Origin: Paraburkholderia flagellata
Lineage (GTDB): Bacteria; Pseudomonadota; Gammaproteobacteria; Burkholderiales; Burkholderiaceae
Direction: 5' to 3'
Length of the DNA: 64,000 bases
NCBI RefSeq assembly: GCF_021390645.1
Contig: NZ_JAJEJT010000002.1
Span: forward strand, 2,042,976-2,106,975
The position numbers and the translations under genes are program-made. Of this stretch, positions 19,643-64,000 are shown piece after piece. Numbering within the stretch: position 1 is the first letter of the stretch; the number at the start of each line of letters is the position of its first letter. Under the pieces are notes generated by a model. It searched no databases. It had not been told where the DNA came from and was given only the letters and a program-made list of their open reading frames with translations.

Positions 19643-20521
19643 CTCCTGAATCTTCTCACCTTTGCCGCCCGCGCGCAGAGTTCTCGGGCGCGACGGCTTG
19701 TCGCCCTGTCGCGCGCGGCGGCAAAAAAACGCCTTGAAATCAGGGCTAATGTGGTTTTTGCACGATAAATTGGCGCGTGCCTCGCCTCGCTTCACATGAT
19801 CGCTGATGGCGCGCTCGAGCCCCTCCCGAAAACGCTCACCTCAGTGCATCGAAACGTGGGTTCACGCGGTTTCGAGTGCGGCTGCCGGCCGGCTCGCGCT
19901 CACCGCATCACAGGCGGGTTTTGCGTTTCGCCCATGTTTTCAAGGCACTTTTTCACGTGACTGTTCAACCCATACGCTCACGCAATTTCGTGTGAGGTGC
20001 GTGAACAAGCGCGAACATACTCACTCCCGAAAAGCCTCACCTATCGCGTGAACGGCCATGCGGGCGTCGAAGCGATGCCTGAACGATGCCGCGCGATGCG
20101 GTATCGTATGTGGATGTCTGCAGATGCCAATGCGAGGAATCACACGATGAGCTACGCAACGAATGCGCCCGCCCGCAAGGAAATCGACTCGCTCGGCGGT
20201 GCCGCCGTCGTCGAATTCGGTACCGACTGGTGCGGCTATTGCCAAGGCGCGCAACCCCTGATCGGCGCAGCGTTCGAGCGCAATCCGCAGGTGCGCCGCC
20301 TGAAAGTGGAAGATGGTCCGGGCCGCGCGCTAGGCCGCTCGTTTCGCGTGAAGCTGTGGCCCACGCTCGTCTTCTTGCGCGACGGCGTGGAGGTCGCGCG
20401 CGTCGTGCGTCCGCAAAACGCCGCCGAACTCGACGAGGCATTCGCTTCGCTCGCATAGTCTCGCCAGGTCCTCTTACGCGGTCCGAACTATCCGCGCGGA
20501 CCGCTCCCGAAAAACCTCACC
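19643..20521 (-). repeat. Group of four dispersed 18-base elements (copies at 19643, 19823, 20024, 20504)
   Basis: Four copies of CTCCCG-N6-CTCACC (reverse complement of GGTGAG-N6-CGGGAG) occur at 19643-19660 (CTCCTG variant), 19823-19840, 20024-20041 and 20504-20521. All lie between genes: three in the 640 bases before the thioredoxin gene and one between the convergent thioredoxin and hpaR genes. The spacer is A-rich (AAAACG, AAAAGC, AAAAAC, AATCTT). The 19509-20146 gap holds nothing else I can recognise. Confidence 0.8.
20147..20458 (+). CDS. Thioredoxin family protein
   Basis: The start at 20147 follows a GAGGA ribosome site and gives 103 residues. It has the thioredoxin fold signature VVEFGTDWCGYCQGAQPL with active site CGYC at about residues 29-32, and the cis-proline loop at LWPTLVFLRDG. 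The active site differs from CGPC of classical thioredoxin, and aspartate and tryptophan stand in front of it as usual. It is cytoplasmic because it has no signal peptide. It is probably a disulfide reductase of unknown target. It faces hpaR convergently. Confidence 0.85.
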   Translation: MSYATNAPARKEIDSLGGAAVVEFGTDWCGYCQGAQPLIGAAFERNPQVRRLKVEDGPGRALGRSFRVKLWPTLVFLRDGVEVARVVRPQNAAELDEAFASLA

Positions 20522-34102: not shown

Positions 34103-34403
34103 TGCGCTGACATCGCAGCCGGTGCGCGGCTCGAGCGCGCCGGCCTCACCCTTCGTTTCGCACCGCGTAGCTCCCGAAAAAGCTCACCGATACGACGCAA
34201 TGAGCGCTGCAACGTAATGCTGACGCAGTAAAGTTCTCCGTCTAATCAAGGGTCTGCGCGCGGTGGCATGGTGCGCAGCACGCGCGGCGCGATGAGTCCC
34301 GAAGAAGCTCACCTTTTCGGCTGCCTTCGCAATTGCCGGCCACGAAGCGGGACCCACGCGGCGCTCCCGATATAATCGATTCGCCATTCAACGAGGACAT
34401 CTC
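34103..34403 (-). repeat. Intergenic gap with two dispersed 18-base elements (34171, 34296)
   Basis: Copies of CTCCCG-N6-CTCACC lie at 34171-34188 (perfect, spacer AAAAAG) and 34296-34313 (GTCCCG variant, spacer AAGAAG), 125 bases apart, after the channel gene. A TATAAT box at 34371-34376 is the likely -10 of the FKBP gene starting at 34404. Nothing else is recognised. Confidence 0.78.
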
Positions 34404-48406: not shown

Positions 48407-48794
48407 CTCCTGAAAACGCTCACCTTTCGCGCCGAAGTGCGTCCGCCGACGTCGCGCCCAACGACAAAAAAGCCCCTTTTCAAGGGGCTTTTTGCATAAG
48501 CGGTTAGCGATTTGAAGTGCAATTTCGCACCGTTGTACGCGGGTCCCGAAAACGCTCACCTCTTGGCATCTCGCGCTCGCTCGCGCAAGGTTTCGATTGC
48601 TAACACCTGGTACTCGGCAATATTCGCACCCTTTAACCTGGGACTACCAGGAAAATCTTGCGCGCTGGAACCAGGTTCTCCTGTACATCGGGACCACGAA
48701 ACTTCCGCGGCCAACTAGCGGCGACGGTGATTGCGGCATGCGTTGTCAACGAACCGTTGCGATACCACGCATGCTGCTCCCGAATCTTCTCACC
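48407..48794 (-). repeat. Three dispersed 18-base elements after modBC (48407, 48543, 48777)
   Basis: Copies of the element lie at 48407-48424 (CTCCTG variant), 48543-48560 (GTCCCG variant) and 48777-48794 (perfect, spacer AATCTT), all in the CTCCCG-N6-CTCACC orientation. They fill the 400-base gap between the modBC stop and the next gene's stop; the first begins eight bases after the modBC stop. Apart from the modBC terminator nothing else is recognised in this gap. Confidence 0.8.
48467..48493 (+). terminator. Intrinsic terminator of the mod operon
   Basis: AAAAAGCCCCTT and AAGGGGCTTTTT form a stem with a three-base loop (TTC) and a T run. It can work in both directions. Confidence 0.9.
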
Positions 48795-48813
48795 TATGAC
48801 CGCGCCGCCGCGC

Positions 48814-49836
48814 TCAGATCATGAAGCGGCTGTCTTCGACGAGCACGCGCGGCAACGGTTGAAGGTCAGCGCGCGCGAAGCGCACCAGCGAGAAGGCGCG
48901 CAGACCCTGCGGACTCGCCGGAAGGCGCGCGAGTGGAAACGTGATCGAGGCGCTGTTGCCCGGACCGCCGTTCGATAGCAGGACGTTCATCGGACTCAGG
49001 CAGATCTCACGCATTTCGACGTTCGTGTATTGCGCGGGATTCGCGAGCACCCTGCAGATCACCGTGAGCTGGTGTTCGAGCGCTTCACTCTTGAGGCCGA
49101 GCGCGGCGATCTCGCGCTCGTTCTGCGCAATCTGCGCCTCGACCTTCGCCACTTCGGCGACGTTTTGCGCGGCATGCTCACCCAGCATGCGCTGCGTCCC
49201 CGCGCCGTGACGCGTGAGCAGTTGCAGGCGTGTTCTAAGGAGCGCGCGCTCCTGTTCGAGCACATCGCGGCGCGACTCGTCGGCGCTGATCTGCTCGAGG
49301 CCTTCGAGTGCAATCTGCTCGACAACGCGCTCCACGATCTGCTCGCGTAGTTCGCTTTCGGTTTCGCCGCACACGCGCACCTGATGGTCGTCGAAACTCA
49401 GCGTAGTCTGCATGACATCGGCATGCACCTCGTCGCCATGCAGCTCGACACCGAAGGCGCGACGCTCGTTCAGGGCCATGCCGAGCACCGCGTAAGTCTC
49501 GCGCGCAAGCGCATGACTCTCGAACCATGCATGCAGTTCGGGCGAGCGGCTTAGCATATGGCCGACCTCGTCGGGCGCGGCGAAAAACGCGTGGATATAG
49601 GGATCGCTCGACCAGGCGGCGGCGCTCGCTTCGCGCGCGGGCGGCATCCGGTCCACCACGTCGCGCACATACGCGATTGACTGCGCGAGCGCGGGCGCAA
49701 GCCGCTCGCGCCACTCGGGCACGAGTTTGAGCGTAGGGCTGAGCACGAGCAGACGCTCGATCAGCGTCTGGATTTGCGGCGATTCGGGCGCCTGCTTCGC
49801 GCGGGCGCGGGGCCAAAGCCTGGCCAGGATACCCAT
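48814..49836 (-). CDS. Hypothetical protein with central coiled coil
   Basis: The start at 49836 (MGILARLWPRARAKQAPES) follows GGAG and gives 340 residues. The N-terminal half is helical (LIERLLVLSPTLKLVPEWRERL, YIHAFFAAPDEVGHML). The centre is a coiled coil (VERVVEQIALEGLEQISADESRRDVLEQERALLRTRLQLL and VEAQIAQNEREIAALGLKSEALEHQL). The C-terminus, from about 280, contains VEMREICLSPMNVLLSNGG and a beta-rich end with PLARLPASPQGLRAFSLVRF. No membrane segment or enzyme motif is visible. I do not recognise the family. It is flanked on both sides by 18-base elements. Confidence 0.7.
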   Translation of the reverse strand: MGILARLWPRARAKQAPESPQIQTLIERLLVLSPTLKLVPEWRERLAPALAQSIAYVRDVVDRMPPAREASAAAWSSDPYIHAFFAAPDEVGHMLSRSPELHAWFESHALARETYAVLGMALNERRAFGVELHGDEVHADVMQTTLSFDDHQVRVCGETESELREQIVERVVEQIALEGLEQISADESRRDVLEQERALLRTRLQLLTRHGAGTQRMLGEHAAQNVAEVAKVEAQIAQNEREIAALGLKSEALEHQLTVICRVLANPAQYTNVEMREICLSPMNVLLSNGGPGNSASITFPLARLPASPQGLRAFSLVRFARADLQPLPRVLVEDSRFMI

Positions 49837-49986
49837 GGAAAACTCCGTTGCAGACCGCTTGCGCGCGGCGGCGGTGAAGCGTAGGACGTACAACGAAAGC
49901 TATTGTCGCGAATGACTATACCGCGAATCACAACCCGCTCGCGACGACGCTGCCGCAGCGCAGCAGCGGCTCGCGTTACGTTCTTG

Positions 49987-50004
49987 CTCCCGGAAACGCT
50001 CACC
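49987..50004 (-). repeat. Dispersed 18-base element (perfect copy, spacer GAAACG)
   Basis: CTCCCG-GAAACG-CTCACC lies in the 370-base gap between the coiled-coil gene and the small ORF at 50206. No other structure is recognised in this gap, which must hold both promoters. Confidence 0.8.
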
Positions 50005-50400: not shown

Positions 50401-50453
50401 GGTGAGGATTTTCGGGAAGAGCGCATCAGGTTCGACTCCTGGAACTCCTCACC
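50401..50453. repeat. Two 18-base elements facing each other (50401 plus, 50436 minus)
   Basis: GGTGAG-GATTTT-CGGGAA on the plus strand at 50401-50418 is followed 17 bases later by CTCCTG-GAACTC-CTCACC at 50436-50453 in the other orientation. This is the only head-to-head pair in the window and one of two places outside the origin with a plus-oriented copy. It lies between convergent genes. Confidence 0.78.
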
Positions 50454-50507
50454 TATCGTTGTATCGGTGAACTCACGATGCGGTGAGTGACTCACCGCCG
50501 CATGCGC

Positions 50508-51122
50508 TCAACGATACTTCTGCAGTTCGGCATCGGTGATCGGTTGCGCCGGCAGATTCAGCATGCCCGGCAAGTCGCCCAACTTCGGCAAGCCGCTGAC
50601 GTTGGCCCAGCGGCCGCCCGAACCTTGATAAATGAGCGTAGGCGTACCGTCGAAACCGAGGTCCTGAAAGAGCTTGATGTTGTTGTCGAGCTTGTTCTTG
50701 TCGGCGGCGGGAATGTGCGCGAGCGGTGCGATGCCGCCCGATTCGTCCTTCTCCGAGTAGTGCGTTTCCAACTCCTTGAGAAGCGCGGCGCCGTCTTTCG
50801 CTTCCAGCAGCGCGGCCGCCTTGCCCGCCGAATCGGGCTTCAGAAAGCCCATAGGAATCCAATGCACCTGCAGGCCCACCGCTTCATACGGTTGCAGCGC
50901 TTTCCACACCAGGTGACAGTAAATACAGTTAGGGTCCATAAAGACATAAAGCGTCGACTTCACGTTTGACCCATTCGCACCTTCGACGATCGCACTTGCA
51001 TTCTGCAAACTCACGGCCGCCGTTGCGGGCAACCAGGTGGGTTCGGGTGCGTCGGACGCCATGGCGCCAGCGCTCAGGACCAATGCGCCGGCGGCGATCA
51101 GCATGCGTGTGAACTTCTTCAT
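50508..51122 (-). CDS. Periplasmic thiol:disulfide protein, DsbC/DsbG-like
   Basis: The 204-residue protein starts with a signal peptide (MKKFTRMLIAAGALVLSAGAMAS) and has one thioredoxin fold with FMDPNCIYCHLVWKALQ (active site CIYC, about residues 65-68) and the cis-proline segment FDGTPTLIYQGSGG. The N-terminal dimerisation domain of classic DsbC is nearly absent, so it is a short form that may act as a monomeric periplasmic thiol oxidoreductase. No partner DsbD gene is nearby. Confidence 0.85.
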   Translation of the reverse strand: MKKFTRMLIAAGALVLSAGAMASDAPEPTWLPATAAVSLQNASAIVEGANGSNVKSTLYVFMDPNCIYCHLVWKALQPYEAVGLQVHWIPMGFLKPDSAGKAAALLEAKDGAALLKELETHYSEKDESGGIAPLAHIPAADKNKLDNNIKLFQDLGFDGTPTLIYQGSGGRWANVSGLPKLGDLPGMLNLPAQPITDAELQKYR

Positions 51123-51249
51123 TCTTTTCCTTTGACCTGGATAGCGCGTTCCATGACTTGCGCCCTGTAAAGCGAAGGCTCGTATCTTAGAGTCAGGCCG
51201 TGGCGCGCGCCTGACGCCAATATGACAGAGGCGTCAGGTTATCAGCAAA

Positions 51250-51267
51250 GGTGAGCGTTTGCGGGAG
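51250..51267 (+). repeat. Dispersed 18-base element (perfect copy, spacer CGTTTG)
   Basis: GGTGAG-CGTTTG-CGGGAG lies between the Dsb-like gene and the outer membrane protein gene, in plus orientation as in the origin array. Confidence 0.8.
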
Positions 51268-59809: not shown

Positions 59810-60811
59810 ATGATAGAGATGGCGTCCTCCGCTTCCTCACGTGACCTCTTCGACCAGCAACGCCAAGACTGGCAGCGTGACCCCGCCGCCGCGTTCGACG
59901 CCTGGCTTGCCTCACAGGATCTGCGCCGGTCCTCCGCCGAAGTCTATCGCGTGCAATGGGGACGCTTTCTCGAATGGCTCGCGCTCAAGCGCAAAACGAT
60001 CATGACCGTGGATACCGGCACGATCGCCGAGTTCGTCGCAAGCCTCGACGTGAAGAAGCCGCAGCGGCTGCGCTACCTGCGGCTCATCGAACGCGTGCTC
60101 GATCACGTGCGCGAAATCGAACTTGCCTCCACGAACCCGGCGCGCTTCATCGCCCAGGACGGCGAAGCGGCGTGGCGCAACGCCCGCGAGAACGAGCCGA
60201 CTGGCTTTCTTACGCCCAATGAGCGCGCGGCGATCATCGGCCAGTTGTTCTCGCCGCTCGTCGAACCCTCTGCCGCGAAACGATGGCGCGAACGCCGCGA
60301 CCGGGCGCTCGTCGCCATTTTTCTGGGAGGCGGATTGAAAACGGGGGACGCCATCGCGCTCACGCTCGACTGCGTGGCGATCGGCGCGGAATGGGTCACG
60401 ATCGAAGCCGCCAACCCGGCGTTTACGCGCGTCACGCGCCTGACGCCATTCGCCGTCGACGTGCTCGGCGCATGGCTCGAAGCGCGCCGGCTCGCCGGAC
60501 TGCCGGGACAGCTGGTGTTTCCGGGCTCGCCCTCGGGACGCCCCATGCACAAGGCCACGGTGTTACGCGCCATCGACGGATTGATGGAAGCAGCGGGCGT
60601 GGCCGAAACTCGCGCCGAGCGCGCGAGTCCGCAGACCTTGCGCAACACCTTCGCAGCGGACTTGTTCGAGCGAGGCGTCGATACGGATCAGGTAGGGCAG
60701 TGGCTCGGTTTCCTGCAGCCGATCTCCGCGGGGCGGTTGCATCGTGCATGGAAAACGTGGACGGAACGCGAGGCGACGCAACACGCTTCAGCGGAAAGCG
60801 ACAAGACGTGA
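59810..60811 (+). CDS. Degenerate tyrosine recombinase-like protein
   Basis: The 333-residue protein has an N-terminal core-binding (SAM-like) domain (about 25-115: FDAWLASQDLRRSSAEVYRVQWGRFLEWL) and a C-terminal catalytic-fold domain (about 130-320). The family active site is largely missing. The first Arg is K177 (FLGGGLKTGDA), the HxxR box reads Q275-T-L-R278 with the second His as Asn, and LGH reads LGF at 299-301. No Tyr stands at the nucleophile position (SAGRLHRAW, about 307-314). Only R278 is kept. It probably binds DNA without recombining it. A start at 59819 is equally possible. Confidence 0.82.
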   Translation: MIEMASSASSRDLFDQQRQDWQRDPAAAFDAWLASQDLRRSSAEVYRVQWGRFLEWLALKRKTIMTVDTGTIAEFVASLDVKKPQRLRYLRLIERVLDHVREIELASTNPARFIAQDGEAAWRNARENEPTGFLTPNERAAIIGQLFSPLVEPSAAKRWRERRDRALVAIFLGGGLKTGDAIALTLDCVAIGAEWVTIEAANPAFTRVTRLTPFAVDVLGAWLEARRLAGLPGQLVFPGSPSGRPMHKATVLRAIDGLMEAAGVAETRAERASPQTLRNTFAADLFERGVDTDQVGQWLGFLQPISAGRLHRAWKTWTEREATQHASAESDKT

Positions 60812-60858: not shown

Positions 60859-60876
60859 CTCCCGTAAAAGCTCACG
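60859..60876 (-). repeat. Dispersed 18-base element near the origin (spacer TAAAAG)
   Basis: CTCCCG-TAAAAG-CTCACG lies between the convergent recombinase-like and kfrA-like genes. It differs from the consensus at one position and is in minus orientation, opposite to the origin array. Confidence 0.75.
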
Positions 60877-60917: not shown

Positions 60918-62123
60918 TCAGGAAGCCTGTTCGTGCGAATGCTTGCCTGCCATGAAGCGCGCGTACGCCGCAAACTTCGACTCCCCCGTTCCCGACGTGT
61001 GCTCGCACTCCGGGCAAGTGAATTCGAAACCATCGTCCACTTCGGACAACTCCGGTTCCCCTTCGTGACAGTTTGGACAACGCGCCGGCAACGCGACGTG
61101 CCCATCGACCGAGGTGCCGAGACTCGCCAACTCGGTTTCGCCTAGCCGGCCGGCGGCGGCGAGTGAACAGAGCACGGCCGCGACGGAAGCATCGAGTCCT
61201 TTCTGGCCGCGCAACGCAGTGACCTGCAGGGTGAGCTCATCCACCTCGTCGGACCGCTCGCGCAGTACGGCGTCGAGCCGGTCGGCGCGGGCCTTCGCCG
61301 TCGCCAATTGCTGGATGAAATCGAATTCCTTCTTGCTGGCATCACGCTGGGCCGACTGCCAGGTCGACGACATCGTGCGCAACGAGTCCAGTTCGACCAG
61401 CATGGGCTTGACGCGCCGTTCGGCCTCGGCGAGCGCATCCTTGATCTGTTGCGCATAGTGCTCGGTGCTTTTGCGCATTTCCTCGTGCAAGCCGTCGATG
61501 CGATCACGCAAACCCGCATTGGTCATCTGTTCCGCTTCGACCCGTTTGCGCAGCGCGTCGTTTTCCGTCTCCAGACGCTGTATCAGCACGTCGCGGTTGC
61601 CATGTGCTGCGGCGCCTTGTGCGGACGCCGCGGCAAGCTGGCTTTCGAGTTCGCGGACCCGCTCATAGGCCGCTTCCACGCGTGCTTCGCTGCGTTGCAA
61701 CATTTCATCGGCCGCCGAGCGACGGGCTTCGGCCTCCCGGGTTGCCTGCTCGGCATCGATGCGACCGGCTTCGAATTCCGCGCGTTCGGCCTGCAAGGCA
61801 TCGCCCGCAAGCGCCAGTGCTTCCTCAAAAAGTGCGCCAAGCAGTTCGCCGGCGCGTTCTTCCAGTGCGGGCGGAATCGCCCCAGCGCCCACACGCACTT
61901 TTGACGTCGCGCGAATGCGCTGCCAGAAAAGCTCGATGTCTTTGGGGATGTCGCTCGCACTGCCTGTCTGGGTCAACTCACGGACGGCAGCCATCGAAGG
62001 TTTGATCTCGAAATCGAAGAACAAGCGTTTGCAGGCATGTAAGGAAAGCTCCTGCCTGCGTGCGCCGTTGTTGCGCAAATTCTCGATTTCTTCGCGGATT
62101 GCCTGGCGGTCCTGGTCTCGCAT
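60918..62123 (-). CDS. KfrA-type DNA-binding protein with coiled coil and C-terminal zinc ribbon
   Basis: The start at 62123 (MRDQDRQAIREEIENLRNNG) gives 401 residues. Residues about 1-110 match the KfrA N-terminal DNA-binding domain (SMAAVRELTQTGSASDIPKDIELFWQRIR). A long coiled coil follows at about 110-325 (LQRSEARVEAAYERVRELESQL, LRDRIDGLHEEMRKSTEHY). The C-terminus has two cysteine pairs, CPNC (near 349/352) and CPEC (near 370/373), that should bind zinc. KfrA proteins of plasmids regulate their own gene and support segregation and nucleoid structure. The zinc ribbon is an addition to the usual layout. It borders the candidate origin. Confidence 0.88.
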   Translation of the reverse strand: MRDQDRQAIREEIENLRNNGARRQELSLHACKRLFFDFEIKPSMAAVRELTQTGSASDIPKDIELFWQRIRATSKVRVGAGAIPPALEERAGELLGALFEEALALAGDALQAERAEFEAGRIDAEQATREAEARRSAADEMLQRSEARVEAAYERVRELESQLAAASAQGAAAHGNRDVLIQRLETENDALRKRVEAEQMTNAGLRDRIDGLHEEMRKSTEHYAQQIKDALAEAERRVKPMLVELDSLRTMSSTWQSAQRDASKKEFDFIQQLATAKARADRLDAVLRERSDEVDELTLQVTALRGQKGLDASVAAVLCSLAAAGRLGETELASLGTSVDGHVALPARCPNCHEGEPELSEVDDGFEFTCPECEHTSGTGESKFAAYARFMAGKHSHEQAS

Positions 62124-62272
62124 ATTCGTCTTCTCGGCGGGGGAGTGGACGAATAATAACAAATTACGTTCTATTTGCTACGTTTTTGAGTGTTGGGATT
62201 GTCGGGGGTGACTCACTGGCGTTCTGTAGGCGTTTTTGGTCAGTGCACGACGAGATCAGCTCGACCAGTCCG

Positions 62273-62296
62273 TGAAACAAATCGAAGTTTGTTTCA
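62273..62296. promoter_or_regulatory. Perfect inverted repeat, candidate KfrA operator
   Basis: TGAAACAAA and TTTGTTTCA flank TCGAAG, a perfect nine-base inverted repeat 150 bases upstream of the kfrA-like start. KfrA proteins bind inverted repeats at their own promoter. The GTTTC/GAAAC core also recalls parS sites, but the spacing and centre do not fit them. Confidence 0.65.
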
Positions 62297-62501
62297 TAAG
62301 CCCTTGTAAACGCGCGGGTTTTTAGCCTGATTGTAAGGCTATCCGTTGTTTCACGCGAGCGGACTCAAGAATCTGCGCTGGCGGTTGGATTGGAATGTGG
62401 ATATCTCGGATAGCTCGCGAGGCGATTCTTGCTTGAGAGATATAAAAGTAAACACCCTTGATACCGGTTAAAAACGTTAACGCCACGGCAAATCCTTACC
62501 T

Positions 62502-62630
62502 GGTGGGGCTTTCCGGCCGATCAGGTGAAGCTTTACGGGACCCTGGGTGAGTGCTTGCGGGAAAGTTGGGTGACGGGCTTCGGGAACGCCGGTGAGCCGC
62601 TACAGGAAAGGACGTGAGCGGGTTCAGGAG
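62502..62630 (+). repeat. Tandem iteron-like array, six units at a 22-base period
   Basis: Units start at 62502 (weak), 62524, 62546, 62569, 62591 and 62613, spaced 22, 22, 23, 22 and 22 bases. Each is a variant of GGTGAG-N6-CGGGAG (for example GGTGAG-TGCTTG-CGGGAA). A 22-base period places all units on the same face of the helix, as in iteron arrays that bind plasmid and chromid initiators. Confidence 0.82.
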
Positions 62631-62657
62631 CGGGTGGATTCTTGACTTCCCGGCAAG

Positions 62658-63881
62658 GGTGAGACGATACGGGAGGCCGCGGTCAGGCAGGTCGCGAGTA
62701 GCTGGGCTCGGCTGCGATGTTACGGGAAATGCAACGGTGAGCGGGTTCGGGAGCGCGGATTCGTGCCATTTTTCGGCTGAATCGAGTGGTTGCAGCGCTT
62801 GGGGTGAGAAGTATCGGGAAAAAATGCGGATCGAAGGTGAAGTTTTTCGGGAGTCGAAGCCCGAAATCGGGCGAAATGGGGCCTTCGAGGGACGAAAGGT
62901 GAGCTTTTTCGGGGGGCTTGCAGCGATCCGAGCGGATCTCCCGGCTGCTTGCAACGCGTCGCCGGGGACTTCTCGCGGCGAAAGGTGAGGATTTTCGGGA
63001 GATTTCCGCAGTGCGGCGAAACCAGCGGCGTCCATCCGGGCCAGGAAGGATAAGGTGAGGCTTTTCGGGGGCGATTTTCCGCAGATTTCATGCCTAAGGT
63101 GAGCAAATTCGGGAGAAAGTTGGTGTTCACTGCGCTGTAGACGCCGAGATTACGCGGGTGCTGGTGGTGTTTCTCTCGGTTGAAATCCTGCTTGGGTGAG
63201 ATTATTCAGGAGCGGTCTTTCGGCAAGCGCGTATTTGTCTGCTTGTTCCGTCGTTGCTTGAGGTGAGGTGATACGGGAGCCGAGATCGCATTCCCGGACC
63301 TGCCTCGCATGTGGATAAGTCACGGAATTCATTGGTTTTTTCTTTTCGATGGCATGAGAGGTGAGGGTTTCCGGGAGGCACCGTGACGGTGCGGTGCAAC
63401 CGTACCGGGACGCAAAAGGTGAGGACTTTCGGGAGCCGAGGCGGCCTGGCAGCCGCTGCGACGGCCTTTCGGTGCGGACTGATATGTTTGGTGAGCGCGG
63501 CAATAGGTGAGAATTTTCAGGATACGTTAGGGCTCGCGTTGGCGAAACCTCGACAAATTTGGGCTTCGATCGCCAAATCGCGCAGCCTTTGCCCCGCAAT
63601 GGGGGACTTTCTGCCGGTCTCGCACGAGCGACGCGCCGTGTTTTGCTGCAGTGCGATCGAATTGCAGCGGAATCTTTAGTCAGCGACCGGTCGGAGCCTG
63701 GATTTCGCTGCCTACGACGGAATTTTCTCACCGGCCACACGAAAATATTTGAGGTGAGCCGATACGGGAGTTGATGGCGACCCTTGGTGCACTGGCGCAA
63801 ATACGGGATCGGGCCGGACCGTGCATGACGCAAAGCGCCCCGCTGGATGGGCGTCTGGCCAAAGGTGAGGCAATACGGGAA
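62658..63881 (+). repeat. Extended array of the 18-base element, 15 further copies
   Basis: Copies start at 62658, 62736, 62803, 62836, 62898, 62984, 63054, 63098, 63195, 63262, 63360, 63418, 63506, 63753 and 63864, all in plus orientation. Eight match all twelve fixed bases of GGTGAG-N6-CGGGAG (62658, 62736, 62984, 63098, 63262, 63360, 63418, 63753). The spacer is T-rich (GATTTT, CTTTTT, GCTTTT) or ends in ATA. Weak relatives occur at 62711 and, inverted, at 63715; lone GGTGAG halves occur at 63490 and near 63890 and 63927. Confidence 0.88.
63310..63318 (-). promoter_or_regulatory. Perfect DnaA box inside the 18-base array
   Basis: TGTGGATAA is the exact reverse complement of the DnaA box TTATCCACA. 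It lies between two perfect 18-base elements (63262 and 63360). One DnaA box next to initiator repeats is typical of iteron plasmid and secondary-chromosome origins. Confidence 0.75.
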
Positions 63882-64000
63882 GGTGTCGCGGTGAGCGGCG
63901 CGCGCGATGCGCGCATCACCGGCAATGGTGAGAGAGGCCCTATAGACGCCCATCACCACAGACGGTATCCTTTCGCGAAATTCTCTCCTCGACCCGACGC

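Follow-up and report, generated by a model that had tools for sequence, protein, structure and literature searches.

The 64-kb window, that is, the whole stretch of DNA analyzed here, ends in an array of about twenty direct repeats that is likely the iteron-type origin of a secondary chromosome (C2), as judged from its sequence and surroundings. The explanation that covered the observations best was an array of a published chromosome-2 iteron, located before a Rep_3 gene and likely serving as the origin, together with two-tier Rep steps that we infer. As a whole, we consider this explanation very probable. The array was assigned as the origin of C2 because its adjacency to rep, a continuous contig junction, and a switch in GC skew were found together.

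When up to two mismatches were allowed, GGTGAG-N6-CGGGAG matched 21 times on the plus strand from 62524 to 63881, eight times perfectly. The whole window contained 42 such matches on both strands, whereas 100 shuffled versions averaged 7.7 and never exceeded 17. At a threshold of 8 bits, a PWM trained solely on 118 iterons of other genera recovered 20 array copies, with first bases at 62524 to 63864 and without exception on the plus strand. The Markov null for this PWM was 1.8 matches per 64 kb on both strands. The match at 62681, which belongs to the 21 pattern matches and was not recovered by the PWM, is probably a chance match. Both counts agreed with the preliminary description of about twenty same-strand copies, eight of them perfect. 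The described spacing of 22 bp followed by 33 to 247 bp also held (22, 23, 22, and 22 bp, then 33 to 247 bp), but the described start at 62502 did not. This slot carries three mismatches (judged by eye), so the clear start of the array is 62524. Helical phasing of the whole array was rejected, as it was non-significant in seven of eight arrays and marginal in one, with a p value of 0.048 (range 0.048–0.72); of the spacing features, the 22-bp period of the core was retained.

From kfrA to rep, the order was an AT-rich block, five packed iterons, 13 spaced iterons, a variable gap, two iterons, two half-iteron repeats, and the ATG. The packed core (62524..62630, plus strand) consisted of five weak iterons with 22/23-bp spacing (62524, 62546, 62569, 62591, and 62613). 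The thirteen spaced iterons (62658..63523, plus strand) were mostly stronger. In a 33-sequence alignment, the iterons appeared as conserved islands amid variable DNA. The two promoter-proximal iterons (63753..63881, plus strand) were 111 bp apart, and the last one ended 119 bp before the rep ATG when C2 was taken as circular.

The window corresponds to C2:2042976-2106975 of this genome (G000), and its end is the last base of C2 (2,106,975 bp). C2 is the second-largest contig of the 9.0-Mb genome; the largest, C1 (3.18 Mb), starts inside dnaA. Base 1 of C2 is the ATG of a 452-aa Rep_3-family protein with Rep3_N and Rep3_C domains (PF01051, 45.7 bits, cut-off 22.4; PF21205, 39.7 bits, cut-off 21.1). 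The cognate rep gene expected just beyond position 64,000 was thus found. It is followed by parB and then parA on the other strand. The end/start junction of C2 was continuous in P. nodosa scaffold L039, whose Rep is 99% identical, with 87% identity across the junction. Of the C2 stretches sampled for GC skew, all 12 between 0 and 1.06 Mb had positive values, and 11 of the 12 between 1.14 and 2.06 Mb had negative ones. Inside the window the skew was mixed (−0.008, −0.027, −0.004, and +0.011 by 16-kb quarter). The proposed GC-skew check therefore placed the sign change around the C2 junction, i.e., at the array, with mixed values near the junction itself. The second-chromosome setting read from the window was borne out by the Rep_3 gene with parB and parA, by the GC-skew switch, and by the concentration of the motif on C2.

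When the end of the window was compared with plasmid sequences, the matches fell mainly on kbl-tdh, and none of them spanned 80% of the query. In a search of solved structures with Rep, pi (2nra) was a weak match (E 0.0044), and the other match was a thermonuclease (E 0.52). The AlphaFold model of Rep was built from 14 close sequences and was not used because its mean pLDDT was 49.8. The 120 listed of 457 Rep homologues were all at least 89% identical and were too similar to help the model. Two features were also observed around the par genes. The palindrome TTTATGCGCATAAA occurred in three copies around parA (L032:2595, 3377, and 3525); being parS-like by form only, these copies are probably the parS sites of the C2 replicon. 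Two DnaA-box-like sites in opposite orientation, 26 bp apart (L032:4306 and 4332), were located about 1 kb past parA and 4.3 kb from the rep start.

The element had been described as unpublished. This was wrong, because the c2 iteron consensus of B. cenocepacia, given as ctCCCGAAAAacCTCACCTtt in the S2 Fig legend of Du et al. 2016 (PMC4948915), is the reverse complement of the motif. The chromosome-2 origin of B. cenocepacia J2315 shares this consensus (ctCCCGAAAAacCTCACCTtt = aaAGGTGAGgtTTTTCGGGag) and is located near rep and parAB in the portions of that source available to us. According to a table legend of the same paper, the iteron has additional copies elsewhere, and c2 carries a second cluster at a distance of 140 kb. 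Its available portions do not mention a weak 22-bp core, a half-iteron operator, distal gap sites within 45 kb, or an hpnD copy. By its 21-bp consensus and its rep and parAB context, the array can be placed in the published Burkholderia c2 iteron family. It also has the make-up of a Rep_3 origin, with a Rep_3 gene, direct repeats of about 17–22 bp, and inverted partial iterons as a predicted rep operator.

Rep_3 iteron plasmids (F RepE, pPS10 RepA, and R6K pi) likewise encode initiators with Rep3_N and Rep3_C, and they carry direct iterons and an inverted half-iteron operator. F, pPS10, and R6K-type plasmids have few, tightly packed iterons. In contrast, the array here has about 20 iterons over 1.36 kb on a 2.1-Mb replicon, with distal copies over tens of kilobases.

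To follow the array in relatives, the best 80 of 242 Rep-encoding loci were used, 79 of which hold upstream DNA. A loose-pattern array with 12–19 copies on the rep strand within 2.2 kb was present in 79 of 79 loci, and an opposite-strand array copy was seen in one of them (L076). Paraburkholderia showed an almost constant order of spacings, part of which was retained in Trinickia and Caballeronia. One strongly variable gap of 135–773 bp preceded the last array copies in the related loci. The array had 15 copies in B. cenocepacia, 16 in Mycetohabitans, and 9, 3, and 6 in three Vallotia endosymbiont plasmids.

More distant initiators had other repeats. The gene of a Rep on a Methylovorus plasmid (43% identity) was preceded by 11 copies of GGTGAG-N7-GGA in both orientations, eight of them with CGGA. 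Two TGTGAG-N6-TGGGA copies preceded the gene of a Variovorax Rep (about 39% identity), and ten GGTA-N7-ATGGG copies preceded that of the B. cenocepacia c3 Rep (34% identity); these last two patterns were drawn up after inspection of those sequences. On these alignments and patterns, the iteron changes with initiator identity.

The kfrA-like gene (60918..62162, minus strand) flanks the origin and encodes a KfrA_N protein (Pfam PF11740, E 5e-16). Its product had been named as a candidate binder, and kfrA does abut the array. It is nevertheless very improbable that the iterons are bound not by Rep but by the KfrA-like protein or by some other factor of segregation or of the nucleoid. Three Vallotia plasmids keep arrays, and kfrA was undetected on all three by tblastn. 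The motif changes with Rep identity and is asymmetric, as expected for a Rep monomer; a two-winged-helix Rep monomer has an asymmetric site, as in other Rep_3 proteins. The published iteron assignment, in the portions available, agrees with Rep as well. The three Vallotia plasmids (66,104, 61,393, and 72,431 bp, each read whole) are AT-rich, and no loose-pattern copies were found outside the array in any of them. Because they carry the array with neither kfrA nor distal copies detected, the array depends on neither of these and accompanies the Rep gene. Distal copies were seen solely on large replicons; AT-rich drift in Vallotia could also have erased them, and the three cases are related.

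A tyrosine-recombinase (Phage_integrase) gene (59810-60811) adjoins kfrA and the origin. Recombinase or integrase genes were also annotated on one Vallotia plasmid and near rep on a Methylovorus plasmid. Between kfrA and the AT-rich block there is a perfect 10-base inverted repeat, CGTGAAACAA / TTGTTTCACG (62271-62280 and 62346-62355, 75 bp apart). Its halves gave strong columns in the 33-sequence alignment, and both exact 9-base halves were present in 16 of 78 loci. They resemble the parts of a split parS (GTTTCACGTGAAAC).

The strength of the packed core was compared with that of the rest of the array by using a PWM trained on 38 pattern-matched sites from distal stretches of two relatives. 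Loci were scored when all five slots were above 0, which dropped 9 of 79. The mean score of the five packed iterons was below that of the rest in 70 of 70 scorable loci, a contrast favored by the picking of the rest with a near-consensus pattern. The mean scores of the five slots were 20.8, 15.1, 4.6, 11.4, and 14.6, respectively, and that of the rest of the array was 25.3. In this window, the packed iterons scored 10–19 and the 14 distal sites 22–34. Identical deviations recurred in the weak slots across many loci, for example CGTGAGCGGGTTC in slot 5.

The AT-rich block before the core (62432..62500) contains AAAAACGTTAACG and GTWWAC sites (62448 and 62476). It is conserved and is a predicted unwinding element. 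The block is mildly AT-rich (0.46–0.56 AT per 100 bp), like the preceding 250 bp. At least one GTWWAC within 110 bp before the first iteron was found in 79 of 79 loci, and exact A3-5CGTTAACG in 58 of 79. Methylation of GTWWAC and CACAG at B. cenocepacia origins is reported in the available portion of PMC7364216. On the other side of the array, two 31-bp inverted half-iteron repeats, GGTGA-N21-TCACC, lie at 63890..63957. At least one such repeat was present in 79 of 79 loci with upstream DNA and at least two in 69 of 79. They form a predicted operator for rep autoregulation.

A DnaA box had been taken as a further pointer to the origin. One exact consensus box is indeed present (63310..63318, minus strand), but it is not generally conserved. 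When exact boxes were scored up to 2.3 kb upstream of rep, one was found in 22 of 79 related loci. The DnaA box was therefore weak support for the origin and was not supported as a conserved origin part.

The window contained 14 further strong copies from 19643 to 60876, about 3–44 kb upstream of rep, 12 of them on the minus strand. A fuller iteron consensus, approximately AAAGGTGAGNNTTTTCGGGAG, was derived from these copies. The nearest one (60859..60876, minus strand) lies some 3.1 kb upstream of rep, in the intergenic gap that separates the recombinase gene from kfrA. Three sites flank a conserved gene (50401..51267; 50401 on plus, 50436 on minus, and 51250 on plus). A cluster of four follows on the minus strand (48407..50004; 48407, 48543, 48777, and 49987), then a minus-strand pair (34171..34313). 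The outermost minus-strand cluster (19643..20521; 19643, 19823, 20024, and 20504) surrounds a thioredoxin-family gene (20147-20458, PF00085). A loose-pattern minus-strand site 2.7–3.8 kb upstream of rep was found in 71 of 78 related loci.

The strict pattern GGTGAGNNNWTNCRGGAN matched 31 times in the 9.0-Mb genome, and its reversed-pattern control did not match. The array accounted for 11 matches and the preceding 43 kb for 12 (window 19.6–51.3 kb); four more fell on the remainder of C2, among them C2:11457, and the last four on other contigs. The extra initiator-type sites were thus concentrated near the origin on the same replicon (12 before the array vs 4 on the rest of C2). The motif is concentrated on C2; the preliminary description had named equal density on chromosome 1, without relation to any origin, as a result that would refute its reading. 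Each of 13 same-genus genomes, this one included, had 24–45 strict matches (control 0, once 1), and 8 genomes outside the family had 0–1 each.

Distal sites occupied corresponding gene gaps in G000, G011, and G002. Ten pairs from G000 and G011 were matched by order within corresponding gaps. The 11 fixed bases were identical in nine pairs and 0.91 identical in the tenth, and flank identity was 0.22–0.46. Among the distal sites of the window, flank identity was 0.269, against 0.271 expected by chance. These data make a mobile or REP-like repeat family without a link to replication an extremely improbable source of the dispersed copies. Copies on both strands across about 45 kb would suit such a family, but the shared stretch is about 21 bp, the distal flanks are at chance level, and the cores are kept at matching places in relatives. 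An apparent periodicity of about 14 kb among the distal clusters was rejected as a regular one. It was explained by conserved gene order, because the clusters are tied to corresponding genes.

After a choice between overlapping frames, and with the start of the thioredoxin-family gene taken as 20147, all 14 distal sites of the window were outside coding sequence. Three sites were in a divergent gene gap. In 11 genomes, 104 of the 123 strict distal sites within 100 kb were oriented outward from the origin; positions were hand-copied for this count, which did not extend over the ends of other circular contigs. Such features would suit an array that is the origin with distal copies that regulate transcription or organize the origin domain, through Rep or another factor; outward orientation is unneeded for a pure sink. 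However, 5 of the 14 sites (20504, 48407, 48543, 48777, and 60859) were in convergent gaps, where no promoter is expected, and one further site was inside hpnD. The outward bias failed in G180 (3 of 12), and strand skew of the G-rich motif may explain part of it. We regard regulation of transcription or of the origin domain as rather unlikely.

Some iteron clusters were far from the origin. Second clusters were seen at G115:C2:2461732-2465203 and G173:C2:76915-80389, with some copies 22–23 bp apart. They come from two genomes of another genus and are possibly the cluster mentioned by Du et al. At G030:C2:1670849-1671349, there was a run of nine iterons, five at 38-bp spacing and three with the spacer palindrome GGAATTCC. 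Among open-access literature, no report of conserved c2 distal iterons or of an hpnD copy was found, and the supplementary table of Du et al. may list some.

The copy at C2:11457 lies inside hpnD (TIGR03465, above cut-off), where it reads V-R-I-F-G. It was followed in 30 other, chosen genomes, 24 of which had the Rep (E at most 3e-256) and six of which had no or remote Rep matches; hpnD was found in 28 of 30. The site was present in 24 of 24 Rep-bearing genomes, 23 times with GGTGAG and once with GGTGAA (G148). It was absent from all four hpnD genes of genomes without this Rep, in which the position had Arg as CGG and CGC in two and Lys in two. Among the 24 Rep-bearing hpnD genes, 21 were parsable. 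The Arg codon of the site was AGR in 21 of 21, whereas AGR made up 17 of 802 other Arg codons in the same frames. The pattern is strong evidence pointing to selection on the DNA itself, with four controls that are also more distant relatives.

A strict copy also occurred on C1 near 3080964 (L127:8964-8981), 98 kb from dnaA, in the gap where the genes for a thiamine-pyrophosphate enzyme and for a branched-chain amino-acid binding protein converge. A single chromosome-1 iteron could in principle be a crtS-like trigger that times chromosome-2 replication. Of 97 sampled genomes of the genus, eight (including this one) had the exact C1 17-mer in this gap, although the sequence around it had diverged. 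However, when 26 regions were taken around the best hit to the flanking gene, a single one contained a loose-pattern match, and G180 and G148 had no strict match off the rep-bearing contig. Other few-contig genomes varied, with strict matches off the rep contig on C1 in G030 (1), G115 (1), G146 (3), and G153 (2), on C1 and C3 in G173 (2 and 4), and on C3 in G197 (1). Because the C1 copy is conserved in a minority of the genus genomes, a crtS-like site was rejected as a general one, and we consider the trigger quite improbable. These scans would miss a crtS site that differs from the iteron, as the one of Vibrio does.

In V. cholerae, extra initiator sites near ori2 on the same chromosome titrate the initiator RctB, according to the available parts of PMC3937223 and PMC6090056. 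The two systems are alike in being iteron chromids with extra initiator-type sites near the origin. They differ in that V. cholerae, in those sources, has a different iteron, which contains a Dam site, along with additional 39-mer sites and crtS on chromosome 1, whereas the consensus here has no GATC and a general chromosome-1 iteron site was not found. In its available parts, a survey of large extrachromosomal replicons (PMC13342612) reports that most complete replication at the same time as the chromosome and that ori2 of B. cepacia is in contact with a large part of chromosome 1, and it names no timing site for Burkholderia.

By analogy with V. cholerae, the strong distal sites likely titrate Rep and limit the frequency of starts. 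In the mechanism that we propose, Rep would bind each iteron through its two winged-helix domains. The strong spaced and distal iterons would take up Rep first, and the weak packed core would be filled by Rep monomers last, when free Rep is high. The filled core would then allow the adjacent AT-rich block to open. Because the strong distal sites are within about 45 kb of the origin, they would double right after firing, and would therefore block a second start or delay the next round. Rep dimers on the inverted half-iterons before the ATG would repress rep.

Such a two-tier clock may be shared by Burkholderia, Paraburkholderia, Caballeronia, Trinickia, and their kin, with a weak core at the melting site and a strong field of about 50 kb that times Rep. 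The iterons of the outer field would mostly point along the departing fork, one of them being within hpnD codons, and this field has no copies on the three Vallotia plasmids (61–72 kb). We put this forward tentatively, with somewhat less than even confidence. Once-per-cycle firing of plasmid-like second chromosomes is known in detail mainly from Vibrio. Since the protein sequence can be preserved when the site is mutated, the hpnD copy would be a clean single-site target for a test. The conserved weak core and the strong distal sites would offer countable DNA sites for testing such firing in a second lineage.
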